This document shows positions 1,387 to 18,193 of a DNA stretch of 22,626 nucleotides, piece by piece. The DNA is from a virus: positions 1 to 22,626 of IMG/VR virus record IMGVR_UViG_3300038657_000011; one strand, given 5' to 3'. The notes under the pieces were generated by a model, which was not told the DNA's origin, made no database searches, and worked only from the letters and a program-made list of their open reading frames with translations. A program made the position numbers and the translations under genes. The stretch's first letter is position 1. Every line of letters starts with the position of its first letter.

Positions 1387-1425
1387 GGTGCGTCTCCTTG
1401 GGTTGGTTTAAAAGAAGGTAGTCAG

Positions 1426-1625
1426 GAGCAACCCTCGCAGAGTTGCTCGTGGTCCCCTTCTCGGGGGTTTCTTGCTCTGCCGGAAACCAGCCGTGAGTTA
1501 CGCGCGAGGATCAATTGCCGTCGGTCCGCGTCTCTCCGTCTACCGTCCCTGTATTCAGGGTTCGCTGTCAGAGGGATCCTTATGCTTGGGGGATCCGTCC
1601 CGTACGACCCGTCGGGGCCGTGACT
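1426..1625. other. GC-rich structured non-coding region
   Basis: No credible gene lies in 1387-1807. The proximal part is full of inverted repeats: GAGCAAC 1426-1432 with GTTGCTC 1442-1448 (7 bp); CCCC 1454-1457 with GGGG 1463-1466; GGTTTC 1466-1471 with GAAACC 1483-1488 (6 bp, competing with the previous stem); CCCTG 1547-1551 with CAGGG 1556-1560 (tetraloop TATT); and two GGATCC palindromes at 1574-1579 and 1591-1596. CCGTC occurs five times (1518, 1536, 1543, 1595, 1609). This could be a structured leader or small RNA, or an origin with short iterons. I cannot decide between these. Confidence 0.5.
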
Positions 1626-1640
1626 TAACTTAAGCCTGAT

Positions 1641-1719
1641 CTTAACTCAGAAGGCACTTACTATTTCATCAATTTGTTATAATAATTTACTGCGATGTAA
1701 GTGCATGTAATTTAAGGGA
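1641..1719. other. AT-rich tract beside the 77-bp element
   Basis: This stretch is clearly more AT-rich than its surroundings and contains TATAAT at 1678-1683 on the plus strand and the overlapping TTATTATAA on the minus strand. It lies between the GC-rich structured region and copy A of the 77-bp element. It could be a DNA-unwinding element or hold a leftward promoter for the small-gene cluster, but no convincing -35 box is present for either strand. Confidence 0.35.
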
Positions 1720-1796
1720 AACCACAAGCCTAACTTCTGAGTAGCTTTCACCACCGAATGCGTGTTGCCACTTAACGACCAAACCTTTGGCGCTAA
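1720..1796 (-). repeat. 77-bp conserved element, copy A (inverted partner at 13942)
   Basis: Read on the minus strand this 77-bp segment (TTAGCGCCA ... TTGTGGTT) aligns without gaps to plus-strand 13942-14018, with 63 of 77 positions identical. Identity is blocky: nine, seven, eleven, twenty-one, five and eight-base blocks are perfect, while the intervening two to five bases are almost completely different. The longest block, ending GGTGGTGAAAGCTACTC, can fold into a 6-bp stem (two to three G-U pairs) capped by a GAAA tetraloop. GCCA and TGGC in the first half form another stem. Copy A starts 11 bp after the primase-helicase stop and reads in the direction of leftward transcription. Confidence 0.8.
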
Positions 1797-1807
1797 GCAG
1801 CAACCCA

Positions 1808-3976
1808 TTACATGGTGGCATCTCCAGCGAACACGGTGTCTGGAGACGTGAGTGCAGCCATGATACGCTTATCGAGGTTTGGTTCGGTCTCGGACCCGAC
1901 AGTCTTGGCTCTGTCCTCTGGAGACTTCCATACCATCTGGCGCTGACGTCCACCGAGTTCGGCGGGCTTGTCAATGGCGAAACCCTTCTCGGACAGGAGA
2001 GAGATGATCCGCTGCGGAGTGATGTAGGCTCGACCCTTGGCTTCCTCTTGCAACCACAACCAGAGGTCCATCACTTCGAGACAGTATCCAGAAGTCAGGC
2101 GCTGGCAGACCACGAGGATAAGGCGCTCGTCCATGGGCATGGACTGGTCGATCAACGCGACCTTGGACGCGGTCAGGGGGGCATGCTCTCCAGCAGTGAC
2201 GTAGTGTCCGAAGTCGAGAAGGTCCTGAGCGAGAGATCTCAACCCCCCTGCAGTTATGAAATCGTACAGCCCTTGGTAGTCGTCGTAGAGGGTGTTGGCC
2301 AGCTTGGGGACCAGCCATCTCCGGTCGTCGTGCTCGATCCGCAGAGCCTCCATGGAGTTGGACGCAGCTGCGTAGTGGCTCCAGTTCGGCAGGGTGTAGT
2401 TGACCATGTGCTTGTTGTTGGCCTCTACGAAGTCGTCGGTGATCAGGCTCTTGAGACGGTTGTAGGTCTTCCAGTTCTGGCCAGCGTAGATCTCATGGAC
2501 CACGACCAGCCGCTTGTTGACTACCCAGCCGTTGAAGTCGGACTGGACCATAGCGTCTCCAGGAAAGCTAACGTGGCGACGACCGATCAAGTCAGCCATG
2601 ATGTCGAGAAGGGTAGACTTGCCTACGCCTTGCATCTTGCTCAGGAGCAGGATCCCGTAGCCCATGCGGACGCTTGGTCGGGCATACAGGGTCGCCATCC
2701 ACCGGACCACCTCTCTCCGCTCTCTGTCGTCTGGGATCAAGTACTCCATGAACTTCCAGAAGGCTTCGGTCCCGTAGTTCCCTCCAACCAGAGGGCGCAT
2801 GCGCCTGTCTATGTACTGGTTGAGGCACAGCTCCCCATCGATGGAGATCAAGCCCTTGGGTTGGTTCGGCATGAAGGTGACTTTGTCGCATATGTTGCCG
2901 CTGACCTTCGCCAGCAGAGCTGAGGTGTCCGCCACGTGGCTGAAGGGCCGGACCTTGATGTTGAATTGGTCTCTGTCCAGCGTGATCTCAGGGTGATGGA
3001 TGTTGGCGTAGTGCCGTAGATTCTGGATGCGGACCCAGTTCTGGGCAAACTCTTCCCTGACAGCGTAGATGATCCTGTTGCCCTCTTGGCCTACTTCCTC
3101 TGTGGCCCAGTTGCAGCTCTGGAGCAACTCCTCGAAGAGAGGGCCTTGGTAGAGCCCAGTGTCATCGGCGAAGAAGTTCTTCGGCATTGGGTCAGCTACG
3201 TCCCAAGCTTGAGGCCAGCGAGCGTCGAACTGGGTGTAGTACGTAGGGCACATGAACCGCTTGGCTATCTTGGAGACCGTGAACTTGCTTATGAAGTCGT
3301 TGTCAGGGACGATGAGCAATTCTCCTGGGATCTTGTTCAGGTCGCGCCATCGGGTCCGGTGCAAGTGGTGAGCTCCACCGATCCAGCCTAGGTGCACTCC
3401 GCTGGAGAAGTACTCGGACCAAGGATGGTTGCCCTCATCCGCTATGCGCTGGGCGATGCGAGCTGACTTGGCACCCTCGTGCAGGAAGACCCTAGCACCC
3501 TTGTAGGCCAAGTCTAGGTTGTATATGGGCAGGCCTTCCTCGGGCTCAGCTGCACGCCAAACTCCATCCGACCAGAAGGTCTGAGGCACATACCGCTTGT
3601 CACCGTTATCGAGCTCAACCCTGACTTGGATGAACACGATGTTCTTGGACTGGTCTCGGAAGATGTACAGGTCGTCTGTGGCTGCATCGCGGATCAGAGG
3701 GGGGAGATCAGAGTTTGGTAGGGCGGATAAGGTGACTTGGTCGGGGAACTGCAGCGCAGAGACCTCACGCTCTATGGCCTCTGCTTCCTGCTCTGTCGGC
3801 ATCATATCCGGCTTAGTGTGGACCTTGCCCTGTCTGTCGAACCTTATAGTGTAGATGTCTTTCTCGTACCCTAACGAGTTGACTATGATCGAAGCATTGA
3901 ACAAGCTCTTCATGGTAGCGCCTATGCGCTCGAGATAGTTCATGGCCGCTTGGCTGGTCGTGATCGGACTGCTCAT
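1808..3976 (-). CDS. Primase-helicase with SF3/D5-type (DUF5906) ATPase
   Basis: A 722-residue protein combining a primase-like N-terminal half and a C-terminal superfamily-3 helicase of the D5/DUF5906 type. Visible motifs: a TOPRIM-like strand with a conserved acid (ARVFLHEGAK, Glu167) and a second acidic motif (LLIVPDND, about 220-227); Walker A MQGVGKST at 448-455; Walker B RLVVVHE at 489-495; motif C-like AASN at 537-540; and an arginine-finger candidate DDRRW at 550-554. It would unwind the fork and prime DNA for the polymerase encoded just upstream. Its ATG overlaps the polymerase stop codon (ATGA), indicating translational coupling. The classic N-terminal zinc finger of DnaG/T7-type primases is not visible, so priming activity is less certain than helicase activity. 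Confidence 0.85.
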   Translation of the reverse strand: MSSPITTSQAAMNYLERIGATMKSLFNASIIVNSLGYEKDIYTIRFDRQGKVHTKPDMMPTEQEAEAIEREVSALQFPDQVTLSALPNSDLPPLIRDAATDDLYIFRDQSKNIVFIQVRVELDNGDKRYVPQTFWSDGVWRAAEPEEGLPIYNLDLAYKGARVFLHEGAKSARIAQRIADEGNHPWSEYFSSGVHLGWIGGAHHLHRTRWRDLNKIPGELLIVPDNDFISKFTVSKIAKRFMCPTYYTQFDARWPQAWDVADPMPKNFFADDTGLYQGPLFEELLQSCNWATEEVGQEGNRIIYAVREEFAQNWVRIQNLRHYANIHHPEITLDRDQFNIKVRPFSHVADTSALLAKVSGNICDKVTFMPNQPKGLISIDGELCLNQYIDRRMRPLVGGNYGTEAFWKFMEYLIPDDRERREVVRWMATLYARPSVRMGYGILLLSKMQGVGKSTLLDIMADLIGRRHVSFPGDAMVQSDFNGWVVNKRLVVVHEIYAGQNWKTYNRLKSLITDDFVEANNKHMVNYTLPNWSHYAAASNSMEALRIEHDDRRWLVPKLANTLYDDYQGLYDFITAGGLRSLAQDLLDFGHYVTAGEHAPLTASKVALIDQSMPMDERLILVVCQRLTSGYCLEVMDLWLWLQEEAKGRAYITPQRIISLLSEKGFAIDKPAELGGRQRQMVWKSPEDRAKTVGSETEPNLDKRIMAALTSPDTVFAGDATM

Positions 3977-6711
3977 TCTTGAAACTCCCCAAGCGCACGG
4001 ACCAAGTCAACGAAGACAATCCCGCCACCCTCAGGCATCGAACCCTTGACCGCCCAGAGGGTCTTGCCAACCCGTCCGGCGTCCAGCATCTTGGTGCCGA
4101 ACTCTTGGTACTTGCGGTTGTTGAGGAAGATCTTGATGTCTCCTGTGTCGTCCTCAAGCAGGCAGGTCATCTTGGTGCCGCCGGACTTCTCGTCCTTGCG
4201 CGGCGTAGCCTTGACCAGCCTACCCATCAGCAGCAGGCCATCCGTCTTGGCTGTCCCAAGCTCTGCCAACGGTGTGGGCTCAGAGAAGATGTTGATCTTG
4301 GTCAGGTCAGGATGGTTGACTGCAATAGCCTCACGGATCGGGTTCAGGCTGTCGAGGGGAGTGGACGGTTCAGATAGTAACTTGAGCGCACGCTTAGGAA
4401 GTTCTTCCCCCCTGTCGCGCTTGCGGAGATACTCAAGGGCAGTCTTGCCGCCTAGACCCTTGACCATGGTCAGAGGGCCCACCAGACCAGATGCCGTCAC
4501 GCGCCACTTCATGGTGGAGGTCAGAGGGTCAACAGGCTTGTAGGTGATGCCTTCCTCTTCCATCTCCCTCAGCATCATCCGTTGGCGCTCCGGCTTGGCC
4601 TCGTGGTTGAGCATGGCTGCGGCGTACTCCAGAGCGTGGTGAGCCTTGAGGTAGCAGCACCAGTAGGAGATCATGGAGTAGGCGACAGCGTGGGAGCGGT
4701 TGAACGCATAGGAGCCGTAGGTCAACAGGTTATCCCAGAACCTCGTAGCTACGCCTTCGTCGATCCCTAGCTTGAGAGCACCTTCCAGGAACTCAGCACG
4801 GAACTCTTCCATGCCCTTGGCACCACCGAAGTACTGTACTGCCTTGCGGAGCTTGGTGACACGTGGCCAACTCATTCCGCCGATCTCTCTGCCAGCCTCC
4901 ATGACCTGCTCTTGGTACAGAACGATGCCCTTGGTACGCCCAAGGATTGGCTCAAAGGCTGGGTGCTCAATGGCGGCTGAGGAAGTGCCGTTGCGGACCG
5001 CGATCCACTTGTCCGTGCCACCAGCGCCCAGCGGCCCAGGACGAGCCAGTGAGGTCGTGGCGACCATGTCCTCGAAGGTCTCAACGTGGAACGAACTGCT
5101 GACCATCTGCACCGAACGACCGTTGTACTGGAACACACCGGAGAACAGCTTCTTGTTCAGCACATCGAAGGCTGCAGGATCATCCAGAGGGACGTTGACC
5201 AGCCAGTCATTATCCTTGCCGATGAGCCGCAGACAATCCTCGAAGACCGATAGCTGCTTGAGGCCCAACGCGTCGATCTTAAGCATGCCCAGATCCTCAG
5301 CGTCGTGCTTGTCGACCTCAGCCGTGTTGGACCGTGAGTCGACTGCAACGAACTCGCTGATGGGCTTGGCGGTCACGACCACACCAGCTGCGTGTGTGGA
5401 GTGGTGACGCGGGTGACCCTCTAGGCGCTTGACGATGCTTAGCTCAGGGTGCTCACGCATCAGCTTGGCACCGTCCTGAGTGTTGGTTAGAACGTCGTCA
5501 AGGGTCGTGTTGCCCTCGTTGACTTCAACGTTCTGAATGACTGTCTCAAACTTGAACTGCGGTATGTTGAGCGCACCAGCTAGCTCCTTGGCTAGGGACC
5601 GCTCTCGCATGAAGGATACGGTTCCCAGCTTGGCCACGTGATCCCTGCCATACTTGTCTGCGAGGTAGTCGAAAACCTTGTGGCGGTGTTGGTCGCTGAA
5701 GTCAATATCGATGTCCGGAAGGTCTGTGCGTCCAGGATCCAAGAACCGCTCAAAGAGCAGAGCATGCACGATCGGGTCGACCGTGGTGATGCCCATGAGG
5801 AAACACACCAACGAGCCAGCCGATGAGCCTCTGGCTGGACCAACAAACATCTCGGTCTTGGCGTAGCGGATCAGATCTGCGATGATAAGGAAGTAGTCCT
5901 CGAACCCCAGCTGCTTGATCACGCCTAGTTCCCGCTCAAGCCTAGCAGCATACTCGGGGGCGGTGATGTCTACGCCTAACTCGCTTGCCCCCCTCTGGCA
6001 CCACTGCTCAAGGTTGACGTCTGTCTCTGGCTGGACCAGAACAGGACGTTGCATGTCGGCAGTGCATAGCGCTGCCATAGCCTCACGATTGTCGAAGGCT
6101 TCCTGACTGGCATACATCCGCAGCTCGTCATCGCTCAGGATGTGCTGGGCCCATGTCTGGGTCGAAGCCTGACGACCCATCATGATCTGGTAGGCGTGCC
6201 TGTCGTCGGGATCAGGGTACATGTTGTCGGAGCTGGCGATAGGCTTCCAGCCAAGCTCTGCAGCAGCCTTTCGCATGAAGGGTATGGTCGACGGTCCCTC
6301 GGCATAATGCCACTCCCTAGACTTGTCCAGTAGGTCAGGGTTGACCCGTCTGCCGAGGATGACCTTGATGCTCGGATCTAGGCTGTTGAGGTCGTTGTAG
6401 TTCAGCAGAGGCTCGTAACGGAACTTGCTGAAGGCTAGCTCAAGAGCGCGGTTGATCGGGCCCAAGGAAGTTGTGGCCACCAGCGTTACGTGGTTGAGGT
6501 TCATGACCTTGGCGTTGGGTGAATCTGTGACCGCAAGCTCAACCCCATAGATCGGTTTGACTTGCTTCTTCTCGCAGAGCTTGCGCCACTGGTTGAAGGC
6601 ATATGTGGAAGCTCTGTCTGTGATGGGAGCGTAGGGTGTCTCGACCCTCGCCATTACATCTTCCAGAAACCCATACGCTACCCTGAACGAGTAGCCGGAT
6701 CTTATTCTCAT
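3973..6711 (-). CDS. dnaE: DNA polymerase III alpha-like (DnaE) replicase, compact
   Basis: A C-family replicative DNA polymerase of 912 residues. Motifs: PARGSSAGS at 292-300, catalytic PDIDIDF at 332-338, HSTHAAGVV near 437-445, and KIDALGL with the third catalytic Asp at about 480. The last 95 residues look like the OB fold (DGLLLMGRLV ... GDIKIF), so the C-terminal tau-binding domain of bacterial DnaE (about 1,160 aa) is absent. The N-terminal PHP domain is recognisable but degenerate: the expected His-x-His-Ser is RIRS and TDH is TDR, so metal-dependent proofreading by PHP is unlikely. A separate DnaQ-like exonuclease is encoded just upstream. I chose the ATG at 6709-6711 because AAGGGGACGAACA precedes it; an upstream in-frame ATG at 6741 lacks this. 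Confidence 0.93.
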   Translation of the reverse strand: MRIRSGYSFRVAYGFLEDVMARVETPYAPITDRASTYAFNQWRKLCEKKQVKPIYGVELAVTDSPNAKVMNLNHVTLVATTSLGPINRALELAFSKFRYEPLLNYNDLNSLDPSIKVILGRRVNPDLLDKSREWHYAEGPSTIPFMRKAAAELGWKPIASSDNMYPDPDDRHAYQIMMGRQASTQTWAQHILSDDELRMYASQEAFDNREAMAALCTADMQRPVLVQPETDVNLEQWCQRGASELGVDITAPEYAARLERELGVIKQLGFEDYFLIIADLIRYAKTEMFVGPARGSSAGSLVCFLMGITTVDPIVHALLFERFLDPGRTDLPDIDIDFSDQHRHKVFDYLADKYGRDHVAKLGTVSFMRERSLAKELAGALNIPQFKFETVIQNVEVNEGNTTLDDVLTNTQDGAKLMREHPELSIVKRLEGHPRHHSTHAAGVVVTAKPISEFVAVDSRSNTAEVDKHDAEDLGMLKIDALGLKQLSVFEDCLRLIGKDNDWLVNVPLDDPAAFDVLNKKLFSGVFQYNGRSVQMVSSSFHVETFEDMVATTSLARPGPLGAGGTDKWIAVRNGTSSAAIEHPAFEPILGRTKGIVLYQEQVMEAGREIGGMSWPRVTKLRKAVQYFGGAKGMEEFRAEFLEGALKLGIDEGVATRFWDNLLTYGSYAFNRSHAVAYSMISYWCCYLKAHHALEYAAAMLNHEAKPERQRMMLREMEEEGITYKPVDPLTSTMKWRVTASGLVGPLTMVKGLGGKTALEYLRKRDRGEELPKRALKLLSEPSTPLDSLNPIREAIAVNHPDLTKINIFSEPTPLAELGTAKTDGLLLMGRLVKATPRKDEKSGGTKMTCLLEDDTGDIKIFLNNRKYQEFGTKMLDAGRVGKTLWAVKGSMPEGGGIVFVDLVRALGEFQE

Positions 6712-6780
6712 TGTTCGTCCCCTTGTTGCTCTCGTGAGCACTCTCCCTCTTGTCTCGTCTGAGAGGCAGAGGCACGCTCT

Positions 6781-7329
6781 TTATTTGAATGCGGGAAGGT
6801 CTCCGCGACGCTTGATCTCGATCAGGCATCTGTGAGTCGCCTCAACGTCCGCTCTTGCGCGGTGCGCTGACTCGAAGCCTGTGCCCAGAAGCAAGGTGTG
6901 GAGGTCGATTAGCTTGAGCCTGCGGCCTTCATAGTGCTCCGTCAGCTCCACAGTGCAGACCCTGTTGGGCGTCCAAGGGAACTTGTTGATGAGGCCAAGG
7001 CGCTTGAGCTCTATCTCTACCATGTCGCAGTCGAACGTAATGTTGTGGCCGCATGCTGCAATCTCGCCTAGCCAGAAGCTCGCTATAGCCTTGGCGTGCG
7101 AAGCGAATGCTCCCTTGCCCTTGACCATCTCATCTGTAATGGAAGTGATCTTTGTGATCTCCTCTGAGATAGGCTCTTTGGGGTCGATCAAGAGGTCGAG
7201 CTCTCCGGTCATCTCGAGGGTCTCGTCGTCCACCTTCATGGCATAGAGCTCTATGATCTTGGGCTGTGTGTGCAGGGGGGAATCAAGGCTCTTTGCGAAC
7301 CCAGTAGTCTCCGTGTCGAAAATGATCAT
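6781..7329 (-). CDS. dnaQ: DnaQ-like DEDDh 3'-5' exonuclease
   Basis: A 182-residue DEDDh exonuclease. ExoI is FDTETTGF (Asp5, Glu7), ExoII is HNITFDCDM, and ExoIII is HRARADVEAT with His and Asp in the DEDDh spacing. This matches the proofreading epsilon subunit of DNA polymerase III and other RNase T/DnaQ-family nucleases. It lies 69 bp upstream of the DnaE-type polymerase, whose own PHP domain has lost its metal ligands, so it most likely provides proofreading. It is shorter than bacterial DnaQ (about 240 aa) and seems to lack the long C-terminal alpha-binding tail. Its ATG overlaps the stop of the HNH gene (ATGA). Non-coding bases 6712-6780 contain only its leader to the polymerase. Confidence 0.92.
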   Translation of the reverse strand: MIIFDTETTGFAKSLDSPLHTQPKIIELYAMKVDDETLEMTGELDLLIDPKEPISEEITKITSITDEMVKGKGAFASHAKAIASFWLGEIAACGHNITFDCDMVEIELKRLGLINKFPWTPNRVCTVELTEHYEGRRLKLIDLHTLLLGTGFESAHRARADVEATHRCLIEIKRRGDLPAFK

Positions 7330-7730
7330 TCGCTGAATCCTTCATACAGAATGTCTGTGGGAGTTACCCTACGTCGTTGGTTGAGGCGATGTGTCACCAT
7401 CTCCAAGTGCAAGTGGTTGACGCACATCCGGTTCTTACACCGATGGTCGATCTGTTTCTTGGGCGGTATGAAGCCGTGCATGTTAGTCCACACAACGCGG
7501 TGGACCGCGACGGTAGCACCGTCCAGCGACATACGAGGGTACCCCCCGCCACGGCCTGTCCCTGAGTGGCTACCCTGCCATACGAAGCAGGGGCTAGGGA
7601 GAGGACCATCGACCACGGCCACGTTGGCCATGATGCGTAGCTCTATGGTCTCCCGTCTGGTGGCCGACTGGAAGTGGTGGTCGCTGAGGTCGTCTTCCTG
7701 AGGGAATTTAGGCTCGTATCCTGCTCCCAT
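7326..7730 (-). CDS. HNH endonuclease
   Basis: A 134-residue protein with an HNH_3-type nuclease core: SPCFVWQGS, then AVHRVVWTNMHG, then the catalytic segment QIDHRCKNRMCVNHLHLEMVT, in which the DH, N and H residues and the paired cysteines are in place. This family includes free-standing homing endonucleases of phages and also packaging-associated nucleases. Here it is joined to both neighbours by overlaps (TGATG at its start, ATGA at its end), which argues for a settled operon member or a precise insertion. It follows a MazG-like gene and precedes the proofreading exonuclease. A downstream in-frame Met (MANVAVVDG) is an alternative start. Confidence 0.88.
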   Translation of the reverse strand: MGAGYEPKFPQEDDLSDHHFQSATRRETIELRIMANVAVVDGPLPSPCFVWQGSHSGTGRGGGYPRMSLDGATVAVHRVVWTNMHGFIPPKKQIDHRCKNRMCVNHLHLEMVTHRLNQRRRVTPTDILYEGFSE

Positions 7731-8245
7731 CAGCTTGGCTCCTTGGTCTCGGCAACATGGTCAAGGCCAGCCACCATGGCGAGGTAAACGATCATGTCCT
7801 CGATGCTGTCCGCATGGCCACCGTCTTCGTACTGGTTGGCGTAGCGCGTCAGCTTGACAATAGCGAGTTCGAACAGGTGCCAACGGTTGAAGTCGTCTGC
7901 CGTCTTGAGCACCTTGCCCTCAGGGAACATCGCAGCCATGACCGCGCCAACCTTCAGGTAGTTGTCCTGGTAGACTGCGTTGCGCTCAGCGTACAGGATA
8001 GCCATCCGGTTGAGCAGCTCAGTGACGTATGGGTCCTTGCCCTGAGCCATAGTCGCAGACCGCATGGTGCGCTCAACGTAGTGAACGCCATCAGCCTTGC
8101 GTCTGATGACCCCGTCAAGATCTACGAACTCAACGTAGTCAGCCTTCCGCTCCAGCGTGCTCTCGTGTGGATGGCCAGCGATTACGTCTGCTATCTGCTC
8201 ATCAGTCAACGGAACGTGCTGTTCTGGTTCTACGCCCTTGCCCAT
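7730..8245 (-). CDS. MazG/DUF6378-like nucleotide-metabolism protein
   Basis: A 171-residue, largely helical protein. The conserved part is AERNAVYQDNYLKVGAVM, then TADDFNRWHLFELAIVKLTR and GGHADSIEDMIVYLAM. The spaced acids of DSIEDMIVY resemble the last helix of phage all-alpha proteins of the DUF6378/MazG-like kind. Those are thought to act on nucleotides, but the biochemical role of this subtype is not established. The N-terminal 60 residues are polar and less conserved in character. Its stop codon overlaps the HNH start, and its own start overlaps the stop of the VOC-like gene (TAATG). The nucleotide-metabolism reading rests on fold resemblance and on the neighbouring ThyX, HD and HAD genes. 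Confidence 0.6.
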   Translation of the reverse strand: MGKGVEPEQHVPLTDEQIADVIAGHPHESTLERKADYVEFVDLDGVIRRKADGVHYVERTMRSATMAQGKDPYVTELLNRMAILYAERNAVYQDNYLKVGAVMAAMFPEGKVLKTADDFNRWHLFELAIVKLTRYANQYEDGGHADSIEDMIVYLAMVAGLDHVAETKEPS

Positions 8246-8790
8246 TACGCTGCCTCCAGACGTTCGATGACCTTGAAGTAGACGCCCAAGAAGTGCTTGG
8301 TGTCGTAGATCGTGTAGCGGTAGCGGCGTCCGGTCTCGAGCAGGAACGCGTTGGTGTGCGTCTGGGTCTCGACCTGCTGAATGATAGGTGCTGCGACGAC
8401 CCAGTTGGCCATGGCCTCGGGAAGCTGTTGGCCCTTCTCGACGTGCGCTCCAATGTGGCAGAGCTGGCAGCTGTTGACGTGGCCGATGTCAGCGTAGTTG
8501 TGACCCTCGATATACCGGAGGATCTCGACCTCAAGGCCAAGGTCGTAGTTGAAGAGCAGCTTGGCACGGTTGGTGGCCTGCTTGCGAGGCTCTCCGGCGC
8601 GACGGGATCCGCGCACGAACCCAGTGGCAACGACTTCATCCTCGACCCAGTTGGCGTCGGTCAGGCGAAGTTGCTTCTTGATTGCAGCTTCATCCTCGTC
8701 GGTGCGAGCGAGGAAGGCGAGTTGGTCGATCTTCAGAAGCCCCAACAGGGGGGAGTTCTTGGGATCCTTAGTGATCAGATCTTCGTACAT
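8245..8790 (-). CDS. VOC (glyoxalase)-fold-like protein, tentative
   Basis: A 181-residue protein that reads like a diverged vicinal-oxygen-chelate domain. The first strand is KIDQLAFLARTDEDEAAIKK, matching the usual (I)DH(V/I)A(F/L)-x-V-D module but with Gln23 where the metal-binding His is expected. Later come LGLEVEILRYIEG and CHIGAHVE (His112), then an end strand RRYRYTIYDTKHFLGVYFKV. VOC proteins include glyoxalases, extradiol dioxygenases and antibiotic-resistance proteins; no substrate can be assigned here. With one His replaced, metal binding may be altered. Its ATG is preceded by CGGAGCATAATC, and it follows the SDR stop by 2 bp. Coupling to the SDR suggests a shared small-molecule or nucleotide pathway, which is inference. 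Confidence 0.55.
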   Translation of the reverse strand: MYEDLITKDPKNSPLLGLLKIDQLAFLARTDEDEAAIKKQLRLTDANWVEDEVVATGFVRGSRRAGEPRKQATNRAKLLFNYDLGLEVEILRYIEGHNYADIGHVNSCQLCHIGAHVEKGQQLPEAMANWVVAAPIIQQVETQTHTNAFLLETGRRYRYTIYDTKHFLGVYFKVIERLEAA

Positions 8791-8792
8791 GA

Positions 8793-9596
8793 TTATGCTC
8801 CGTATGGGATTACAGTGTTGGCGAGAAACTTGTGGTCATCTGGTGTGCGCACAAGGTTGGCGATGAAGCCTGCGAGAGCTTCAGGGGTCGTCTCCTCGCC
8901 AGCAGCGAGGGAAGCCAGTTGGTAGGCTTCAGCTTGTTCAGGGGTCCACCCCCGCAGCTCTGGAACGCGACCCTCAATGTAGGTCGACATGCCTGTGCCT
9001 TTGAGCTTGTTAGGGCTGATGCCGAAGACCGTAAGGTTGTGGGTCTTCTTCAGCTCGCGCCCTAGGGCCAGCGTAGCGATATGCTGGGCACCCTTGGTGG
9101 CGTTGTAAATGACCGAGTTGGTCATAGGCATATGGCTGGCGTTGCTGATGATCTCGATCAGGGTGCCAGTGTCGCGGAACCAGTTGTTGTATTGGCCAGC
9201 TACCGAAGTCAGCGGAGGCTTAGACCCGATCAGCTCTTGCACCAGCTGCAGGTGAGACAGGACGTTGATCCTCATCAAGCGGTTGAACTGCTCCTCAAGA
9301 TCTGCCTGAGGGAACCACTCGATGTAGTTGACGCCGACGCAGTTGATCAGGACAGGGTAGTACTCAGGAGAGAGGGTGCCTGACGAGATGAGATTGGATG
9401 TCCGCTCACGGATCAGCTCCGCAGCTTGGTACACGTCTTCAGAGTACCGGAAGTCGTGAGCTTGGATGTTGTCTAGAGGCGGGAAGGGCCCAGAGATGCC
9501 GATGGTCTCTGTGAGCCCTAGGCCATGGCAACGAGCCATCAGAGCAGCGCCTAGGCCTCCATCTGCTCCAACGATCACAATGAGTTGTTTCTTCAT
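8793..9596 (-). CDS. Short-chain dehydrogenase/reductase (SDR)
   Basis: A 267-residue classical-type SDR. The NAD(P)-binding motif is VGADGGLG (Gly10, Gly14, Gly16), the strand-4 motif is NCVG at 85-88 (usually NNAG), and the catalytic set is complete: Asn111, Ser151, Tyr164 and Lys168 (YNATK). It should be a functional oxidoreductase using NAD(H) or NADP(H); the substrate is unknown. The start at ATG 9594-9596 follows CTAGGAGACTGAACT. SDR genes are uncommon in phage replication operons. Here it sits between a HAD phosphatase and a VOC-like protein, which hints at a metabolic step on a nucleotide, cofactor or sugar rather than a structural role. It could also be a carried auxiliary metabolic gene. 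Confidence 0.88.
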   Translation of the reverse strand: MKKQLIVIVGADGGLGAALMARCHGLGLTETIGISGPFPPLDNIQAHDFRYSEDVYQAAELIRERTSNLISSGTLSPEYYPVLINCVGVNYIEWFPQADLEEQFNRLMRINVLSHLQLVQELIGSKPPLTSVAGQYNNWFRDTGTLIEIISNASHMPMTNSVIYNATKGAQHIATLALGRELKKTHNLTVFGISPNKLKGTGMSTYIEGRVPELRGWTPEQAEAYQLASLAAGEETTPEALAGFIANLVRTPDDHKFLANTVIPYGA

Positions 9597-9607
9597 AGTT
9601 CAGTCTC

Positions 9608-10072
9608 CTAGAATGCGCCTTGCGCGGTTTGAAAGCAGGTGAAGCCGTTGTCTCGCCACATGGCGACTACGGCCTCTCGGTCTTCGAGGATAAGGACCTC
9701 TTCCTTCTTGTGGTGGCCCAGCTCAGCCATCCAATGGGTCAGGAGCTCAAGCTTGAGATCCACGTCCCGACGGTAGTCGTCCTTGGGCCGCATGATCAGC
9801 TCGCTGAACTCGTCGCCTTCGAACATCGCAGCGACATTGTTGAGCCAAGTCAAGGTCTCTGAGCGGTACTGCTCTGGACGCCCAGTCAGCAGGATGGTCT
9901 CGAGGTCATCGCCTCGGATCTCCTGCAGGGCGCGAACCACCTCAAGAACCCACAGCTGGGGCTCATCAAGGTGCATCAGGGAGTGGAACGTATCCCAGTC
10001 GCCACCCAGAGCATGGTGCTGTCTGTGGACGCAGTTGGTCAGTGTCCCGTCAATGTCAAGCACGAGTAGCAT
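9608..10072 (-). CDS. HAD-family phosphatase, PNK 3'-phosphatase-like
   Basis: A 154-residue HAD hydrolase. Motif I is LVLDIDGTLT with nucleophile Asp6 and acid/base Asp8; motif II is LLTGRPEQY; the Lys and acidic motifs lie in RPKDDYRRDVDLKLELL and LILEDREAVVAMW. The RPKDDYRRD-x(3)-K element is close to the phosphatase half of T4-type polynucleotide kinase/phosphatase, so removal of 3'-phosphates from nucleic acid or a nucleotide phosphatase role is likely. No kinase P-loop domain is present. The start is ATG 10070-10072, which overlaps the stop of the 67-residue gene (TGATG) and follows GAAGGAG; a longer in-frame ORF to 10246 is unlikely because it would overlap that gene entirely. Confidence 0.82.
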   Translation of the reverse strand: MLLVLDIDGTLTNCVHRQHHALGGDWDTFHSLMHLDEPQLWVLEVVRALQEIRGDDLETILLTGRPEQYRSETLTWLNNVAAMFEGDEFSELIMRPKDDYRRDVDLKLELLTHWMAELGHHKKEEVLILEDREAVVAMWRDNGFTCFQTAQGAF

Positions 10073-10275
10073 CAGATCATCTCCTTCTCGAGGAACAGGT
10101 CCTCTGGTCCAGTGAGGGTTACGACACAGCCTCGGGCGCGTGGGCCGGAGACTTCGACTTGAGACAGAGGGAACCATACTGGATGCATGTCCTTCTCGTG
10201 GCGCTTGATCTTGATTGCACTGTCTGTCTCGTGGACCCAGATGCACTCAACGTCTGTGATGTTGGAACGGGTCAT
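10072..10275 (-). CDS. Small hypothetical phage protein, 67 aa
   Basis: A 67-residue protein beginning MTRSNITDVECIWVHETDSA and containing HPVWFPLSQVEVSG. The VW-x-P-x-SQ-(V/I)-E pattern is common in small, uncharacterised phage proteins of nucleotide-metabolism operons, but no function is known to me. The ATG at 10273-10275 has a G-rich ribosome-binding site (AGGGGGGCAAG) at good spacing. An alternative GTG two codons upstream (10279-10281) would overlap the ThyX stop and add two residues. Its end overlaps the HAD gene start by one base. Confidence 0.7.
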   Translation of the reverse strand: MTRSNITDVECIWVHETDSAIKIKRHEKDMHPVWFPLSQVEVSGPRARGCVVTLTGPEDLFLEKEMI

Positions 10276-10277
10276 GG

Positions 10278-11087
10278 TCACTTGCCCCCCTGCACGATGT
10301 CGTTGAGCTTGGCAAGAGAGATCCTGAGGGGGTGAGCTTCCTTCTCGCTCAGGCCTAGGGCCTCTATCTCGCGCAGAACGTCGCCGTGAGCCTCAGCTGC
10401 CAGCTCGTCCTTGGGCCGGAGGAAGAGCGCGACCCAAGGCCACATCTCAACGAGGGCCTCACGCATCTCTCTGGCGATGACGTTGAACTCACCCTGTGCG
10501 CGGTAGCTGGAACGAGCCTGAATGAGGTCGACCAGCATGCGGAGGTTGTACTTGGCGATCAGGTTGCAGTGCAGGTTGACCGGAAGGACGCCGCGTGCGT
10601 CTTCGAGCTTAATTCCAAGGCCAACCAGTTCTTTGTAGTTCTGAAGGCCATCCTGCATCTTTCGGTCAAACAAAACTTCATCTGCGAGAGTGCCTGCTGT
10701 TGTTTGGCCCTCGGAGTAGTGCGGGTTGTGCCAAGTCGCATTGGACATGTCGGTCACGCGCTGACTCTGCATTGCGTAGGAGCCGAACAGGTCACCGTCG
10801 ATCGGGGTGAAGCGTGTACGCGTGATCTGCTGGGCACAGGCACGGCTGACGTCGCGGATGCTGAAGGTGATGTCGAGGAACTCCCAGCTGGACCGGATAG
10901 TCTTAGCCATGTACTCCAGCTCAGCCATCATCCACTCAGGCTCGCGGCGGCAACGCTCCACGATACCCTCAAGGCTGGCACCGTCCATCACAAGGCGCGT
11001 GGCCTTGGTGAAGATGAGGAGGCCTGCCGCCTCAGCGGGGTCCTTGGCCGTTGTTGCCACGATTTCTATGTGATTACGTTTGGTCAT
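10278..11087 (-). CDS. thyX: Flavin-dependent thymidylate synthase (ThyX-like)
   Basis: A 269-residue ThyX-type protein, which would make dTMP from dUMP with FAD, NADPH and methylene-tetrahydrofolate. Family features: the helix VSRACAQQITRTR, the SQR following it (108-110), the C-terminal LIQARSSYRAQGE with Arg-Ala-Gln-x-Glu at about 196-200, and the following helix EMREALVEM. The signature RHR-x7-S-x-R is altered: His is Thr (RTR, 90-92), and fifteen residues separate RTR from S-x-R instead of about seven. It starts at ATG 11085-11087 behind AAGGAGACGACCA and overlaps the preceding stop (ATGA). It supplies thymidylate for phage replication, matching the HD, HAD and MazG-like neighbours. The variant signature makes catalytic details uncertain. 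Confidence 0.85.
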   Translation of the reverse strand: MTKRNHIEIVATTAKDPAEAAGLLIFTKATRLVMDGASLEGIVERCRREPEWMMAELEYMAKTIRSSWEFLDITFSIRDVSRACAQQITRTRFTPIDGDLFGSYAMQSQRVTDMSNATWHNPHYSEGQTTAGTLADEVLFDRKMQDGLQNYKELVGLGIKLEDARGVLPVNLHCNLIAKYNLRMLVDLIQARSSYRAQGEFNVIAREMREALVEMWPWVALFLRPKDELAAEAHGDVLREIEALGLSEKEAHPLRISLAKLNDIVQGGK

Positions 11088-11476
11088 TGGTCGTCTCCTT
11101 GGGTTGCGTTGAGTTTGAATGCTGCATTGAGTGCAGCATGGTTCGGAATGTCCTTGTAACTGACAAAATCCATGCGGTATCCGTCAGGATAGTGGGCGCG
11201 AAATGATTCGTGCCTGTCAAGGCGAGTGCCTTCAAGGATTCCAAGATCGTGCAGCATGTATCCCTCAGCGGAACAAATGTGGCCGCCCAAAACCGTGCCG
11301 TCCCGTGCAATAATGCATGCCGAAAACCATCCGGCGCTGCCGCCGTTGTTGAAGCCATAAATTACAGGCAATTCATCGAGGGGTTTGTCGTGGGGGTTAA
11401 ACACAGCATACCCTTTATTATCATGGGCGCGGTTATGCTGGGCTAAATACAGTGCTGCTGCTGATGCTGTTGTCAT
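11084..11476 (-). CDS. Hypothetical phage protein, 130 aa
   Basis: A 130-residue soluble protein with a Gly-rich middle (YGFNNGGSAGWFSACIIARD) followed by a beta-rich GTVLGGHICSAEGYMLHDLG and a tyrosine-rich section near YPDGYRMDFVSYKD. No catalytic motif or known fold is evident. ATG 11474-11476 follows ATAGGAGACACACC. The stop overlaps the ThyX start (ATGA), and the ThyX ribosome-binding site lies inside its last codons, so the two are likely translated together. Its codons look somewhat less GC-rich than those of ThyX, judged by eye only. Confidence 0.7.
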   Translation of the reverse strand: MTTASAAALYLAQHNRAHDNKGYAVFNPHDKPLDELPVIYGFNNGGSAGWFSACIIARDGTVLGGHICSAEGYMLHDLGILEGTRLDRHESFRAHYPDGYRMDFVSYKDIPNHAALNAAFKLNATQGDDQ

Positions 11477-11486
11477 GGTGTGTCTC

Positions 11487-11750
11487 CTATAATGGTACGC
11501 TCAGGTAAACTGGTTTGATTTTGACGTGCCTCTTGTCGAGGGTCTCTGGTTTGGTTCGTCTGATGGCTACGATCGCAGACTTGGCTGCATGCTCTGAATG
11601 ATACATCCTCGGGATTGCCTTTCTGGACATGTCCCCGAATGCTAATGCTGGCCTACCTTTCTCCTTCCGCATCTCTAGCAAGTATTGGTTGGCCACCAGA
11701 TCGTGGACAGCCCAGAGAGCAACAGTTCTCTCTCTGGACTTATCCCTCAT
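11487..11750 (-). CDS. Hypothetical phage protein, 87 aa
   Basis: An 87-residue basic protein with a helical N-terminal half (ERTVALWAVHDLVANQYLL), a central GDMSRKAIPRMYHSEHAAKS segment and a strand-like C-terminus. The high content of Arg and Lys would fit nucleic-acid binding, but there is no recognisable motif. Its ATG overlaps the stop of the FAD-oxidoreductase gene (ATGA), so it is translationally coupled to it, and it ends 10 bp before the next gene. Confidence 0.65.
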   Translation of the reverse strand: MRDKSRERTVALWAVHDLVANQYLLEMRKEKGRPALAFGDMSRKAIPRMYHSEHAAKSAIVAIRRTKPETLDKRHVKIKPVYLSVPL

Positions 11751-12688
11751 TGCGCAGCCTCGTACTTGGCCCTGCCATCGATCAGCTGAGTGATGATGCG
11801 CACATCGTTAGGGATGTCGTCGAGCAGAAGCTTAGGACGCCAAGTAGCGAAGCGGCCAAGAGAGTGAATGTTGTGCTCATTGCTCAACCACATGACGAAC
11901 CGCTTGGCGCTCTCCCTCTCTGAGAAGGGCAGGTCTGCGATCTTCTGGTACTTGGCTGGCTTGACGGTGACACTGGTGATGTGGTCAACTCGGATGCCTA
12001 GGGCAGAGCAAGCCAGCCTAGCGACGTGGCCAACTTGACCTTCAATGTCATGCGCGGAGCCTAGCCCCTCGATCATGATCCGGCGTCCGGTGATAGAGGC
12101 GCGATAGAAAGGTTCGTCGCCAGGAAAGTACAACGTCACATTGAGGTCGCATGGCACGTCGTCGCTGACCCGAGCTTTGATCGTCCAGCCCTCCACGTAA
12201 GAGAACGCAGGGGGGTTGGGCCACTTGAAGAGCTTCATCATATAGGGCATAGGGATGGTCGACAGGATCGGTCGCTTGTTGCGGATCAAGTTGCTAGACC
12301 AGCCTAGGAAGTCCATACCGTAAGAGATGTCCGCAGTGCGAGACAGGCGTTCGATGAAGTCGTCCGGCGCAATGTAGCGTTGCACTGGCTCAAGATCTTG
12401 AATGGACCTGTTGGCATACCCCCCTGTCACCTTGAGACTGTAGCGTGCTGCGTCGGAGGCCTTGTTGATCGGAGCGAAGACGTCCTTGATCACCTTGACG
12501 CGGCTGAAGGGGATGTTGGTGACGCGGGACACCTCGTCCTCGCGGAAGCGTAGCAGCGCACCATGGTTGTTCGGGAGGCTTGCTTGAGCCTCGTAGATGC
12601 ATGGGCTCCGGTCCGCAAGCATGCGTGCTGCTATTAGACCGGAGAGGCCTGCACCCCAGATGATGGGTTGGTTGTCTGAGTCAATCAT
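11747..12688 (-). CDS. FAD/NAD(P)-binding oxidoreductase-like protein
   Basis: A 313-residue protein starting MIDSDNQPIIWGAGLSGLIA. The dinucleotide-binding motif GAGLSG lies on the first strand-turn-helix, followed by CIYEAQASL where the Glu would hold the ribose of FAD. The C-terminal GRFATWRPKLLLDDIPNDV resembles the closing FAD-contact segment of flavin amine-oxidase and UDP-galactopyranose-mutase-like proteins. The substrate is unknown; related FAD proteins do occur in phages. The start at ATG 12686-12688 overlaps the stop of the HD gene (ATGA); a longer frame to 12739 is disfavoured because it runs into that gene. Placement between HD hydrolase and ThyX suggests nucleotide or base chemistry, but that is inference. 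Confidence 0.72.
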   Translation of the reverse strand: MIDSDNQPIIWGAGLSGLIAARMLADRSPCIYEAQASLPNNHGALLRFREDEVSRVTNIPFSRVKVIKDVFAPINKASDAARYSLKVTGGYANRSIQDLEPVQRYIAPDDFIERLSRTADISYGMDFLGWSSNLIRNKRPILSTIPMPYMMKLFKWPNPPAFSYVEGWTIKARVSDDVPCDLNVTLYFPGDEPFYRASITGRRIMIEGLGSAHDIEGQVGHVARLACSALGIRVDHITSVTVKPAKYQKIADLPFSERESAKRFVMWLSNEHNIHSLGRFATWRPKLLLDDIPNDVRIITQLIDGRAKYEAAQ

Positions 12689-13248
12689 CTCGCCACCAGA
12701 AAGTTGTATGTTTGAATGAAGGCCTGCTTGGCACGCCAAGGCAGCATCGGTTGAGACAGGTCTATGCTAAGTCCTACACCATCTGCGAACTGCCAAGGCA
12801 GGTCGTCGTCGTTGTTGGCGAACAACTGCTGGCGCTCATCGACTGTGATGCGGTGGTCAACCTCTTTGATCTGCGGATGCATCTCCTTGTCAATGCCGAA
12901 CTGCATGGCTATGACCTCGTGAGTGCGGTCCTCAATCAGCTGATAGGGCGCTCCAAGGATCCGTTTGAGTGGACGCGGTACATCCCCTACGAACGCTTCT
13001 GCGGCGTCATGAAGCAGTGCAGCCAACTGCAGCTCTGGCCGGACGAACGAACTGACCAGCACAGAGTGTTCTGCGACCGAGTAGAACTTGTCTGTCTGAC
13101 CGCCCCAACGGCATATGTTGGAGAGGCCATGGGCGATGTCTTCGATGAGGAAGTCTCCGACGCGTGGGTCGAGGGGCCAGTAGCGTTGGCCGGAGTTGAG
13201 GAGAAGCCAATCGCCATTGCGAGGTTTGTGATCTGGACGTGGTGGCAT
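12685..13248 (-). CDS. HD-domain hydrolase, YfbR-like 5'-nucleotidase type
   Basis: A 187-residue HD-superfamily metal hydrolase. The metal ligands are visible: His61 in FYSVAEHSVLVS, His80-Asp81 in ALLHDAAEAFVGDVPRPLK, and Asp131 in KEVDHRITVDE. The N-terminus (YWPLDPRVGDFLIEDIAHGL) is typical of phage YfbR-like proteins. YfbR removes the phosphate from deoxynucleoside 5'-monophosphates, so a role in tuning the deoxynucleotide pool is likely, in keeping with ThyX, HAD and MazG-like genes in the same operon. Length agrees with the family (about 190 aa). The start overlaps the preceding stop by one base (TAATG), and the end overlaps the FAD gene. Confidence 0.9.
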   Translation of the reverse strand: MPPRPDHKPRNGDWLLLNSGQRYWPLDPRVGDFLIEDIAHGLSNICRWGGQTDKFYSVAEHSVLVSSFVRPELQLAALLHDAAEAFVGDVPRPLKRILGAPYQLIEDRTHEVIAMQFGIDKEMHPQIKEVDHRITVDERQQLFANNDDDLPWQFADGVGLSIDLSQPMLPWRAKQAFIQTYNFLVAR

Positions 13249-13925
13249 TACTTCTTCCCCTTCGGTTGCTTGACTGCTGCGAACTTACCGTGCCAGATGC
13301 CAGCCTCGGTAATGTCGTTGCCCTTGCCCTTGCCGATCAGCTCCTTGAGCCACGACTTCAGACGCGCAGGATGCACCCCAAGCTTCTCTGTCGCTGGCAG
13401 CTGCTGCAGCTCAAGGGTCTCACGCAGGCGCTGCACGAGGTCCATCTGCTCGTTGGTGAGACGGTGGTCCTCTTCATCTTCGTCGAAGATCGTGGTCTGT
13501 TGCTCGAGACCGAGGATGGCGCGGATCGCATGCGCACGCTTGTCGTTGGGGGAGAAGTTGACGATGAACTCCTCTGCCATGATCTGCTCGATGCCAAGAG
13601 GCCGGAGTGCGTCCAGCATGTCGTTACGCTTCTGGAGGTCCTTCGGCAGAGATGAGTTGACTGCAACCTCCAGCTCGACAGTGATGCCAGTCTCAGGGTC
13701 ACGCCAGATCTCGGTGCCCATCTCCTTGAGCAGGTCCGGCAGAGTGGCTGACTTGATCTTAGTGATGATTGCGTTCTCCCCCTCCAGCTGCGCCTTGAGC
13801 TCCGAAGCGTTGCCCTCTGCTTCCATCAACTGCTTGAAGGTACGGATGACCTCTGCAGTGTTATCGTTGCTGGAAACTGCGTCCACTTCTGGGTCGAAGA
13901 AGTCGTCGTCGGTCTGATTGGTCAT
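13248..13925 (-). CDS. Hypothetical replication-region protein, acidic N-terminus
   Basis: A 225-residue protein and first gene of the operon. It begins MTNQTDDDFFDPEVDAVSSN, an acidic tail, followed by a likely coiled helix (NASELKAQLEGENAIITKIK), a beta-rich middle (GTEIWRDPETGITVELEVAV), and a basic helical C-terminal half ending in Lys-rich PKGKK. It may belong to the phage family annotated as DUF7173, based on the ordering of helix and strand segments; this is uncertain. The DDDFFD stretch also occurs near the N-terminus of the next gene upstream. ATG 13923-13925 follows CTAGGAGACGACCAAG, which abuts copy B of the 77-bp element. Confidence 0.65.
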   Translation of the reverse strand: MTNQTDDDFFDPEVDAVSSNDNTAEVIRTFKQLMEAEGNASELKAQLEGENAIITKIKSATLPDLLKEMGTEIWRDPETGITVELEVAVNSSLPKDLQKRNDMLDALRPLGIEQIMAEEFIVNFSPNDKRAHAIRAILGLEQQTTIFDEDEEDHRLTNEQMDLVQRLRETLELQQLPATEKLGVHPARLKSWLKELIGKGKGNDITEAGIWHGKFAAVKQPKGKK

Positions 13926-13941
13926 CTTGGTCGTCTCCTAG

Positions 13942-14018
13942 TTAGCGCCACAGGTTTGATGTTTAAGTGGCAAGGTTGATTCGGTGGTGAAAGCTACTCT
14001 AAAGTTCGTGTTGTGGTT
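13942..14018 (+). repeat. 77-bp conserved element, copy B (inverted partner at 1720)
   Basis: Plus-strand 13942-14018 matches copy A on the minus strand at 63 of 77 positions without gaps. Relative to leftward transcription copy A is forward and copy B reversed. GCCAC at its 5' end can pair with GTGGC 15 bases on, and the perfectly conserved block carries the GAAA-capped stem. CCACA near the 5' end could also pair with TGTGG near the 3' end, closing the element. It ends six bases from the AGGAG of the downstream gene, so in the leftward transcript its complement forms most of that gene's 5' leader. Confidence 0.8.
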
Positions 14019-14090
14019 AGTTAGGTGGAGGATTTTCACCTCACTGTAGGTCGCTCAACCGACCCTCTGCGGCTTTCCCCGAAGGGATTT
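14019..14090. other. Non-coding gap with short hairpins
   Basis: Between copy B and the stop of the 289-residue gene lie small inverted repeats: GGTCG 14049-14053 with CGACC 14060-14064 (6-nt loop), and on the leftward transcript TCCC-UUCG-GGGA around 14078-14089, a short stem with a UUCG tetraloop. No U-tract follows either, so termination is possible but not shown. I see no gene here. Confidence 0.4.
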
Positions 14091-14960
14091 CTACATCGCC
14101 GCGCCATCTCCTGATGCGCGACCACCTTGGCCCTCAGTCTCACCGACGGACACGTCGATGGTGACCTCGTCGCGGCTGATTGTCTCGTTGATCTCACGCA
14201 CCATAGCGAGGATCGAGCGACCGTTGACGTGCTCCTGCAGCCGGAAGGAAGGCTTGTGGTTCCACACGAACCATTCGTTGCCTTCGAACTCACGCAGACG
14301 CGTACCCAGCTCCCACGCACGGTAGTAGAGTGGCGCAGGACGAATACCCTTCGACGTGTTGAGCTTCTCGTCACGGATGCCAGCCATCAACTTCTTGGAG
14401 CTGGTGAACTGGGTCTTGCCCATAGCGATGAACCCGAGGCTCAGGGTCTCTGGGTCGAGCACGTACCATGTGCCAGTGACGACCAGCTCGTGACCGCGTG
14501 GCGTCCAGACGGATGCGTTGGCCTCGTTGATCTTGCACTCTGCCATGACGCTGTCGTCGGTGCCGTAGTCGCGGTACAATCCACCCCCCGTCACTTGCGG
14601 GAAACCTTCGATCGGGCAAGGCTTGTCGCGGGGGATCCACTCGATGTAGCGACGCTGGTATGCTGCCATGATGAGCGTCTGGCTCTCCATTACCTTGCCT
14701 GACGCAGTGTTGAGGATCATGCCCATCTTGGCACCCTCGACGTACTCGTCCTTGCGGCTGTTGACCTGTGGGCTCTGGCCCTGCAGGATCGTCCAGCGTG
14801 GTAGCGTCACGTCCTCGTTGGTGACGTCGTCCATGCCAGTCGGTGCGTCGAAGAAGTCGTCGTCCGTCATCGCAACCGCATTGTCCTGCGTGTGCATCAC
14901 AGCGTTCTCTTGCTTCAGCTCCTCGGCTTCCGCCTTGTCAGTCTTTGTCTTAGTGGCCAT
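14091..14960 (-). CDS. Hypothetical phage protein, possible DNA-metabolism role
   Basis: A 289-residue protein. The N-terminal 60 residues are polar and acidic, with the motif MTDDDFFD that recurs at the N-terminus of the neighbouring 225-residue protein. The core begins TLPRWTILQGQSPQVN and is beta-rich (AAYQRRYIEWIPRD; HELVVTGTWYVLD), followed by YYRAWELGTRLREFEGNEWF. Proteins of this form are common in phage replication and recombination regions and have no assigned function that I can cite; single-strand DNA binding is one possibility. The C-terminus is Gly-rich. I start it at ATG 14958-14960 behind TAGGAGAGCCACC. A longer in-frame ORF to 15050 lacks a comparable site. Confidence 0.75.
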   Translation of the reverse strand: MATKTKTDKAEAEELKQENAVMHTQDNAVAMTDDDFFDAPTGMDDVTNEDVTLPRWTILQGQSPQVNSRKDEYVEGAKMGMILNTASGKVMESQTLIMAAYQRRYIEWIPRDKPCPIEGFPQVTGGGLYRDYGTDDSVMAECKINEANASVWTPRGHELVVTGTWYVLDPETLSLGFIAMGKTQFTSSKKLMAGIRDEKLNTSKGIRPAPLYYRAWELGTRLREFEGNEWFVWNHKPSFRLQEHVNGRSILAMVREINETISRDEVTIDVSVGETEGQGGRASGDGAAM

Positions 14961-15057
14961 GGTGGCTCTCCTATGGTTGAGGTTCGTCTTCTGTGGTCGG
15001 ATTGCTCCGGTGACGCAGCCCATAGGTGCAGGGCTGCGCTGCAGGATCAACCGCTAG

Positions 15058-16849: not shown

Positions 16850-17237
16850 TGATCCAAGCCTCCAACAGCGCCCTACGCTTGCGTGACACCAGCTCGCTGT
16901 ACGCGGGGTCTAGGATCTGTCGCGCTGACGTGATCTTGAAGTGGCCCCACTCAAGCTGGTCACCTAGGCCCACAGCATCGAAGTCTAGGACGAGGGCCAT
17001 AGGAGAAGGGGTCTCGATGGCGCGTACATGGTCGCCTCGCATAAGGACGGTGCGTACCTCTTGCTTCTGGAGCTTGACTAGATGGTGGTAGCCTGTGGGC
17101 CGGAAGTAGCACTGCACGCCAGAGGTCTGCATGGACTCAGCAAGAAGGAGACATCGAGCGAGGAAATTAGGTAGCTCTCCGCGTTGATTCTCCTCGTTGA
17201 CCTCGCGCTCAGAGAGGGGTAGTGTTAGGTTGATCAT
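16842..17237 (-). CDS. Hypothetical phage protein, 131 aa, first leftward gene
   Basis: ATG 17235-17237, preceded by AAAGGAGTATGCACC, starts a 131-residue protein (MINLTLPLSEREVNEENQRG ...). It has an alpha/beta look: a helix FLARCLLLAESMQTSG, strands VQCYFRPTGYHHLVKLQK and VRTVLMRGDHVRAIE, then MALVLDFDAVGLGD and a basic C-terminal helix. No catalytic motif is clear. The frame is open far upstream (to 17522), including an ATG at about 17306, but only the chosen start has a good site. It is the first gene transcribed leftward from the iteron-containing region and may be an early regulator. Confidence 0.68.
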   Translation of the reverse strand: MINLTLPLSEREVNEENQRGELPNFLARCLLLAESMQTSGVQCYFRPTGYHHLVKLQKQEVRTVLMRGDHVRAIETPSPMALVLDFDAVGLGDQLEWGHFKITSARQILDPAYSELVSRKRRALLEAWING

Positions 17238-17361: not shown

Positions 17362-17818
17362 TATCGTACCGAACATGGGTTTTCGTACCGAACCTGCTGG
17401 GAATTTGGTACGACTATTATCGAGCGTTTCCATGGGCTTAAAAGTATCGTACCGAGTGGTTTCGCAGAGAAGATTGGGTATTGGGTATAGGTCATTGGCG
17501 ATTTTCCCTGTGTTACCAGCACGATACCCCCCGATGGTCTTGTCCTTTTATTGGGAACGTACCGTACTGAAAATATTTTCTGAAGACCCTAGGGGAGGGT
17601 AAGACGTTTTTATAATACTGTAAACTGATCCCTTTTAAACTGGAGAAGAAGGGTAAAACTTGGTACGTTGGTTGTAAGGCACTGGTGTTGCTGGATAAAT
17701 ATCGTTCGTACTGAAAATGTATTGGTTGAGAGTTTGGTACGTTGTCAGAGAGGAACCAATAAGGCACTGGCATTGCTGGATAAATATCGTACTGGCCGTT
17801 TGCATGTTTGGTACGATA
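17362..17818. repeat. Cluster of GTAC-centred iterons in divergent intergenic region
   Basis: The 707-bp gap 17238-17944 contains about ten variants of the motif TATCGTACCGAA in either orientation: 17362-17374, 17381-17394, 17404-17413 (reverse), 17445-17455, 17557-17571, 17659-17670 (reverse), 17702-17713, 17733-17744 (reverse), 17787-17793 and 17807-17818 (reverse, TTTGGTACGATA). The longer string CGTACTGAAAAT occurs twice, at 17563 and 17707. The gap separates leftward from rightward genes, so the motif probably binds a repressor or activator, or an initiator at an origin. The small HTH protein encoded at 17945 is a natural candidate to bind it. Short ORFs crossing this region look spurious. 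Confidence 0.7.
17675..17790 (+). repeat. 31-bp direct repeat, 85-bp spacing
   Basis: TAAGGCACTGG-YR-TTGCTGGATAAATATCGT occurs at 17675-17705 and 17760-17790 with 29 of 31 bases identical; only the two-base YR position differs (TG versus CA). Each copy is preceded by a TTGGTACGTTG iteron (at 17660 and 17734) and followed by a CGTAC. This is a duplicated module within the control region, perhaps two promoters or two initiator-binding units. Confidence 0.8.
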
Positions 17819-17944
17819 GGAAGAAAGAGCAACATGGGGGGTGTATCGGTGAAATACTTGATGCTTCTGCCCTACGGGTGAGGCTTAAAGGTGGAGCTAG
17901 ATGATGCTATCCGCATCCGCAACCAACGATCAAGGAGATCAATC

Positions 17945-18187
17945 ATGGCCGACCAGAAAGAAGCAGAACCGAAGGTAATGAATAACCGCTTCACGCCTGA
18001 GCAAATCACGAGCATCCGCGCTGACCGTGCTGAGCTGACTGAAGACGGCAAGCCAGTCAACACGCACAAAGCACTTGGCGAGAAGTACGGTACGTCCGCT
18101 GGCGTCATCTCGCAGATTGTACGCAACCGCACTTATGCCGATCCTGACTACAAGCCAGTCAACGATCGCTTCGACTCAAACAGCTAA
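17945..18187 (+). CDS. Small HTH DNA-binding protein, putative regulator
   Basis: An 80-residue protein beginning MADQKEAEPKVMNNRFTPEQ and containing HKALGEKYGTSAGVISQIVR at about 41-60, a helix-turn-helix of the kind ALAEKYGVS-x-STIS-x-I. This is typical of small phage DNA-binding proteins and of the HTH tails of some homing endonucleases. The start at ATG 17945-17947 follows CAAGGAGATCAATC; an upstream GTG at 17891 extends the frame by 18 residues but has a poorer site. It is the first rightward gene, directly beside the GTAC iterons, so it is a candidate regulator of the divergent promoters. It could also be a packaging accessory protein, since terminase genes follow. Confidence 0.72.
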   Translation: MADQKEAEPKVMNNRFTPEQITSIRADRAELTEDGKPVNTHKALGEKYGTSAGVISQIVRNRTYADPDYKPVNDRFDSNS

Positions 18188-18193
18188 CTGCCG

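Follow-up and report, generated by a model that had tools for sequence, protein, structure and literature searches.

The window, which makes up a separate virus record of 22,626 bases from an uncultured phage (labelled G000 among the compared genomes), contains a leftward (minus-strand) gene array that harbors two intergenic copies of one element. Copy L (1696-1815, core 1720-1796; motif on the plus strand) is located between the stop of a primase-helicase gene (1808-3976, minus strand) at 1808 and the next minus-strand gene at 1386. Copy R (13923-14032, core 13942-14018; motif on the minus strand, operon-sense) is located between a Pam3_Gp34-like gene upstream (14091-15050, minus strand; Pfam PF23977, E = 2e-34) and a Pam3 gp33-like gene (DUF7307) downstream (13248-13925, minus strand; Pfam PF23984, E = 8e-9), whose Shine-Dalgarno sequence it adjoins. 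The array runs past both copies; they sit in gaps within it and do not bracket the operon from outside, as the original prediction had it. The window also encodes its own DNA polymerase III alpha-like gene, a free-standing HNH_3 endonuclease gene within the replication gene array (7326-7730, minus strand) and, among the replication genes, a FabG-like reductase gene (8793-9596, minus strand), which is a possible auxiliary metabolic gene. A 31-bp direct repeat of 94% identity (17675-17705 and 17760-17790) is located in the region that separates the leftward genes from the rightward packaging genes.

The two cores (1720-1796 on the minus strand and 13942-14018 on the plus strand) are identical at 63 of 77 bases in an ungapped alignment, with the identity in blocks, both as first described. 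This is the top self-match of the window, with E = 3e-15 in self-BLAST and a raw score of 84, whereas 40 shuffles of the window by an order-2 Markov model scored no higher than 53. A 22-mer allowing up to three mismatches occurs in L and R only (0 expected). The 77-bp match represents the core of an element of ~110 bp, and the homologous unit at L extends beyond the core to about 1696-1815; the full profile matches L with E = 2e-28 and R with E = 3.5e-17. Three conserved blocks were recognized in the operon sense: GTAAGTCNATGTTATT..GAAACCAC, AA.TTT.GAGTAC and CCAAACCTTT.G.GCTTTG. Few 6-mers are repeated inside the element and clear tandem iterons were not found in it, nor was a ~10.5-bp periodicity of conservation; an excess of matches at a lag of 20-21 (z = 4.2 and 2.9) stems from homologous, non-independent copies.

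Relatives obtained by protein searches in IMG/VR form a small family, consisting of G001 (8.8 kb), G002 (46.6 kb), G003 (25 kb), G004 (22 kb), G005 (48 kb), the distant G006 (21 kb) and L040 (4.8 kb examined of a 6.1-kb contig). Among seven contigs, only G002 and G005 have terminal repeats suggesting completeness (253 bp and 99 bp, respectively). The original prediction regarded a lack of counterparts in relatives as grounds against a functional element; counterparts were found in four related contigs, giving eight copies with those of the window, always at the L or the R site. The L site, directly after the primase-helicase stop, is occupied in G000, G001, G003, G005 and L040, and the R site, between the Pam3-gp34-like and gp33-like genes, in G000, G003 and G005. 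The three genomes in which both loci are visible (G000, G003 and G005) contain exactly two copies each, spaced 12.1-12.4 kb apart. A first profile made of six copies recovered an unused seventh copy exactly in the gp34-gp33 gap (G005, 4360-4476), and the eighth was then found in L040, directly after the primase stop. Leave-one-genome-out profiles recovered the copies of every genome, including those of G005 (E = 5e-13 and 1e-7), G003 (1e-18 and 5e-12) and G000 (3e-19 and 7e-5); in no contig did a third copy pass the threshold, and a profile of the L copies alone recovered all three R copies (1e-11, 6e-11 and 5e-9; 4.5e-9 for the window R). The reversed-profile control gave nothing below E = 1.7. 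A weak profile match in the R gap of G004 (E = 3.2) was dropped because the eight-copy profile did not uphold it.

The complete relative G002 has neither an L nor an R copy according to the profile search, though it encodes a related primase. A two-gap pattern search returned G001 only, a profile scan of genome contigs yielded one distant primase without a significant element match, and DNA matches in named phages and plasmids were at chance level or absent. Exact 17-mer matches in IMG/VR (L001-L005) occur in unrelated context and were set aside. The primase of G000 shares only 58% identity with that of G003 or G005, despite the same two element gaps. Within G000, L and R score 100 against each other, and R scores no more than 74 against any copy of another genome, whereas the L-R similarity in G003 (88) and G005 (56) is not above that between genomes. 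The element is a real, conserved and paired cis element. It looks functional, as proposed at the outset, and a multi-block binding site fits.

All R copies are operon-sense, as are the L copies of G003, G005 and L040; L is flipped only in the window and G001, where its flanks are not reversed and it runs antisense to the operon. A profile built from G003, G005 and L040 only placed the window L, inverted relative to those of these three relatives, at 1696-1794 on the plus strand (E = 3e-7) and the G001 L on the minus strand (1.5e-5). One inversion of L suffices because the primase tree groups L040, G003 and G005; the placement of G000, G001 and G002 is not settled by the tree. The inverted pair is therefore present in the window but not conserved, a detail of one lineage, since G003 and G005 carry their copies in direct orientation. 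The flip of L in G000 and G001 without loss fits a double-stranded DNA site, not an RNA in a one-way operon.

The primase-helicase (722 aa) is the candidate initiator. Its SF3 helicase is recognizable by sequence (Pfam DUF5906, E = 1e-18; PDB primase 6k9c, E = 2e-17). The full-length model had a low pLDDT of 50, and therefore the analysis was confined to its N- and C-terminal parts. The N-terminus is predicted to adopt a TOPRIM-like fold, with a weak foldseek match to the T7 gp4 primase (E = 8e-4), and the C-terminus was modelled as a winged helix (pLDDT 86) whose PDB matches were largely winged-helix proteins, all with E above 0.03; these two of the three domains are thus putative and assigned by predicted fold only. 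Over 50 bp, the AT content of the window is highest beside copy L (1662-1711, 76% AT), at a candidate unwinding element. All five L loci have a 50-bp AT peak (66-76%) within 180 bp after the primase stop, ranking in the top 1-4% of the contig, but AT-rich peaks are common in intergenic DNA generally. No turn of GC skew was detected at L or R in the complete relatives.

Between copy L and the next gene, covariation points to a candidate structured RNA, RNA1 (1393-1660, minus strand), of ~265 nt with 51 predicted pairs, 13 of which show two-sided changes. None of 500 shuffles reached the observed values, slid controls gave much lower ones, and no Rfam match was found. Homologues are present in G001 (6475-6747), G003 (17672-17926), G005 (16915-17160) and L040 (1890-2195). 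The genes after RNA1, beyond L, differ between phages, and a conserved UCCU in RNA1 may pair with the Shine-Dalgarno sequence of the next gene. The element-free G002 contains short stretches like the RNA1 5' end at 28735, 1018 and 43281-43334 (all minus strand), with GTGCCTTCTG or a near match and AT-rich DNA before them. Among the small genes downstream of L there are direct repeats of about 50-78 bp in G005 (17362-18388) and G001 (7262-7706). Copy R adjoins another conserved non-coding segment (14022-14077, minus strand), which shares 91% identity with the corresponding gap of G002 (40875-40930). Segments at this side are also found in G003 (5541-5675) and G005 (4205-4355); one type is common to G000 and G002, and another to G003 and G005.

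We tentatively favour L and R as candidate double-stranded DNA sites for a replication initiator, which together would form a two-site origin of the P4 ori/crr type; of the roles originally listed, replication origin is the best fit. The initiator is most likely the phage's own SF3 primase-helicase. This reading draws on the two copies at conserved positions, their orientation insensitivity, the AT-rich neighbour and the domains of the adjacent protein. The C-terminal winged helix of the primase-helicase would bind L and R at their conserved blocks; the helicase would assemble at L and open the adjacent AT-rich stretch, and R, across the replication genes from L, could provide a second site for loading or looping. 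On the other hand, the lack of clear iterons and of a GC-skew turn and the G002 primase without an element speak against an origin, as do strong hairpins in the R copies of G003 and G005, which could indicate a single-stranded function. If it is true, the phages with a DNA polymerase III-like replicase gain a testable candidate for where and how their replication starts, and the two-site ori/crr plan of a satellite phage would then also apply to phages that carry a complete set of replication genes. There is a slim chance that the pair represents a new kind of origin, in which two non-iteron, orientation-tolerant sites of ~110 bp, one at each end of the replication genes, work jointly and L is coupled to RNA1, which would participate in initiation, for example as a primer or regulator.

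The copies could instead be operators, through which a DNA-binding regulator of the phage controls the early leftward operon from two positions inside it. Intergenic, double-stranded and orientation-tolerant sites numbering two per genome would suit such a regulator, as would the position of R, which in G000 and G005 abuts the Shine-Dalgarno sequence of the gp33-like gene; however, ~110 bp is long for an operator, no promoter is shown at L or R, and the genes after L vary among the relatives, and we consider this explanation unlikely. The operon transcript might alternatively carry the copies as cis-acting RNA elements, for example antitermination signals, for which lambda nutL/nutR and HK022 putL/putR are analogues. 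Two copies in early genes, most of them operon-sense, would be expected of such signals, and RNAfold predicted strong hairpins in some single copies (R of G003 and G005, L of G000 and G005). The stems of the two R hairpins differ in sequence, a feature that also speaks for RNA elements, and these hairpins mean that a single-stranded role of R could be considered. Nevertheless, RNAalifold on the eight copies gave 0 consensus pairs on either strand, and the L copies of G000 and G001 run antisense to the operon. The GAAA-capped stem of the original prediction is absent from most homologues (it is not kept in G003, G005 and L040), and its GCCA/TGGC pairing is kept in some copies only. With hairpins in only some single copies and none by RNAalifold, the proposal that the element itself is a structured RNA was rejected, and a role in the transcript appears distinctly unlikely.

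A small mobile or repetitive element without a role, inserted twice, might account for the inversion in one lineage and for the way the R element switches its position relative to the neighbouring conserved segment, lying before it in G003 and after it in G005; yet the absence of a third copy in every contig, the exact pair in three genomes and the use of the same two gaps by phages with such divergent primases make it improbable. The inversion site also proposed originally is very improbable and a 12-kb inversion was rejected, even though L is flipped in G000 and G001 and near-perfect inverted repeats of 12 bp (ATGtAAGTGCAT) enclose the L of G005. In G000, G003 and G005, the primase and gp34-like genes point the same way and the L-R spacing is kept, G003 and G005 have direct copies, and neither PF00589 (tyrosine integrase) nor PF00239 (serine resolvase) was matched in the seven contigs, two of them complete-looking and most partial.

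The preferred reading, a two-site origin, has its closest likeness in satellite phage P4. In the P4 record, crr is annotated as a pair of 120-bp repeats that carry type-1 sites in both orientations, and it begins 46 bp past the 3' end of alpha; ori, which shares these type-1 sites, lies ~2.1 kb past the alpha 5' end, outside the alpha operon on the opposite side. In both systems, two separate cis sites that share sequence flank the replication gene or genes, one of them directly 3' of a primase-helicase gene; the units are of similar size (~120 bp in P4 and ~110 bp here), the short P4 sites occur in both orientations, and alpha carries the same DUF5906 helicase domain together with TOPRIM. It is through a winged helix that the P4 alpha protein binds the repeats of its origin (PMC4234260). 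In contrast, the P4 sites are arrays of 8-bp type-1 repeats (TGTTCACC), a word absent among the recurrent words of our element, the two sites are about 5 kb apart in P4 rather than 12 kb, and the window phage has a DNA polymerase III alpha-like gene of its own. Comparison of the whole window primase-helicase with P4 alpha by hhalign gave no significant similarity. Type-1 repeats were not found here, and therefore we regard the pair as working like P4 ori/crr and not as a member of it.

Two further systems place a cis site downstream of a replication gene. In SaPIs, the origin directly follows the Rep helicase gene, and Cch2 of SCCmec, a parallel at the biochemical level, binds direct repeats downstream of its own gene (PMC7581432). 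The shared feature is a cis site directly downstream of the gene for a self-loading helicase, which in those systems is bound by the C-terminal domain of the helicase (PMC7581432); the SaPI and SCCmec sites, however, are iterons at a single locus, whereas the present element lacks clear iterons and has a second copy at a distance of 12 kb. Plasmid pRN1 needs one large stem-loop, unlike the present element with its two copies and no conserved fold. Replication of the plasmid requires that stem-loop, which lies downstream of the SF3 primase gene and still functions in another position (PMC4234260), so that pRN1 offers a precedent for a relocatable cis element of ~100 bp downstream of an SF3 primase-helicase gene.
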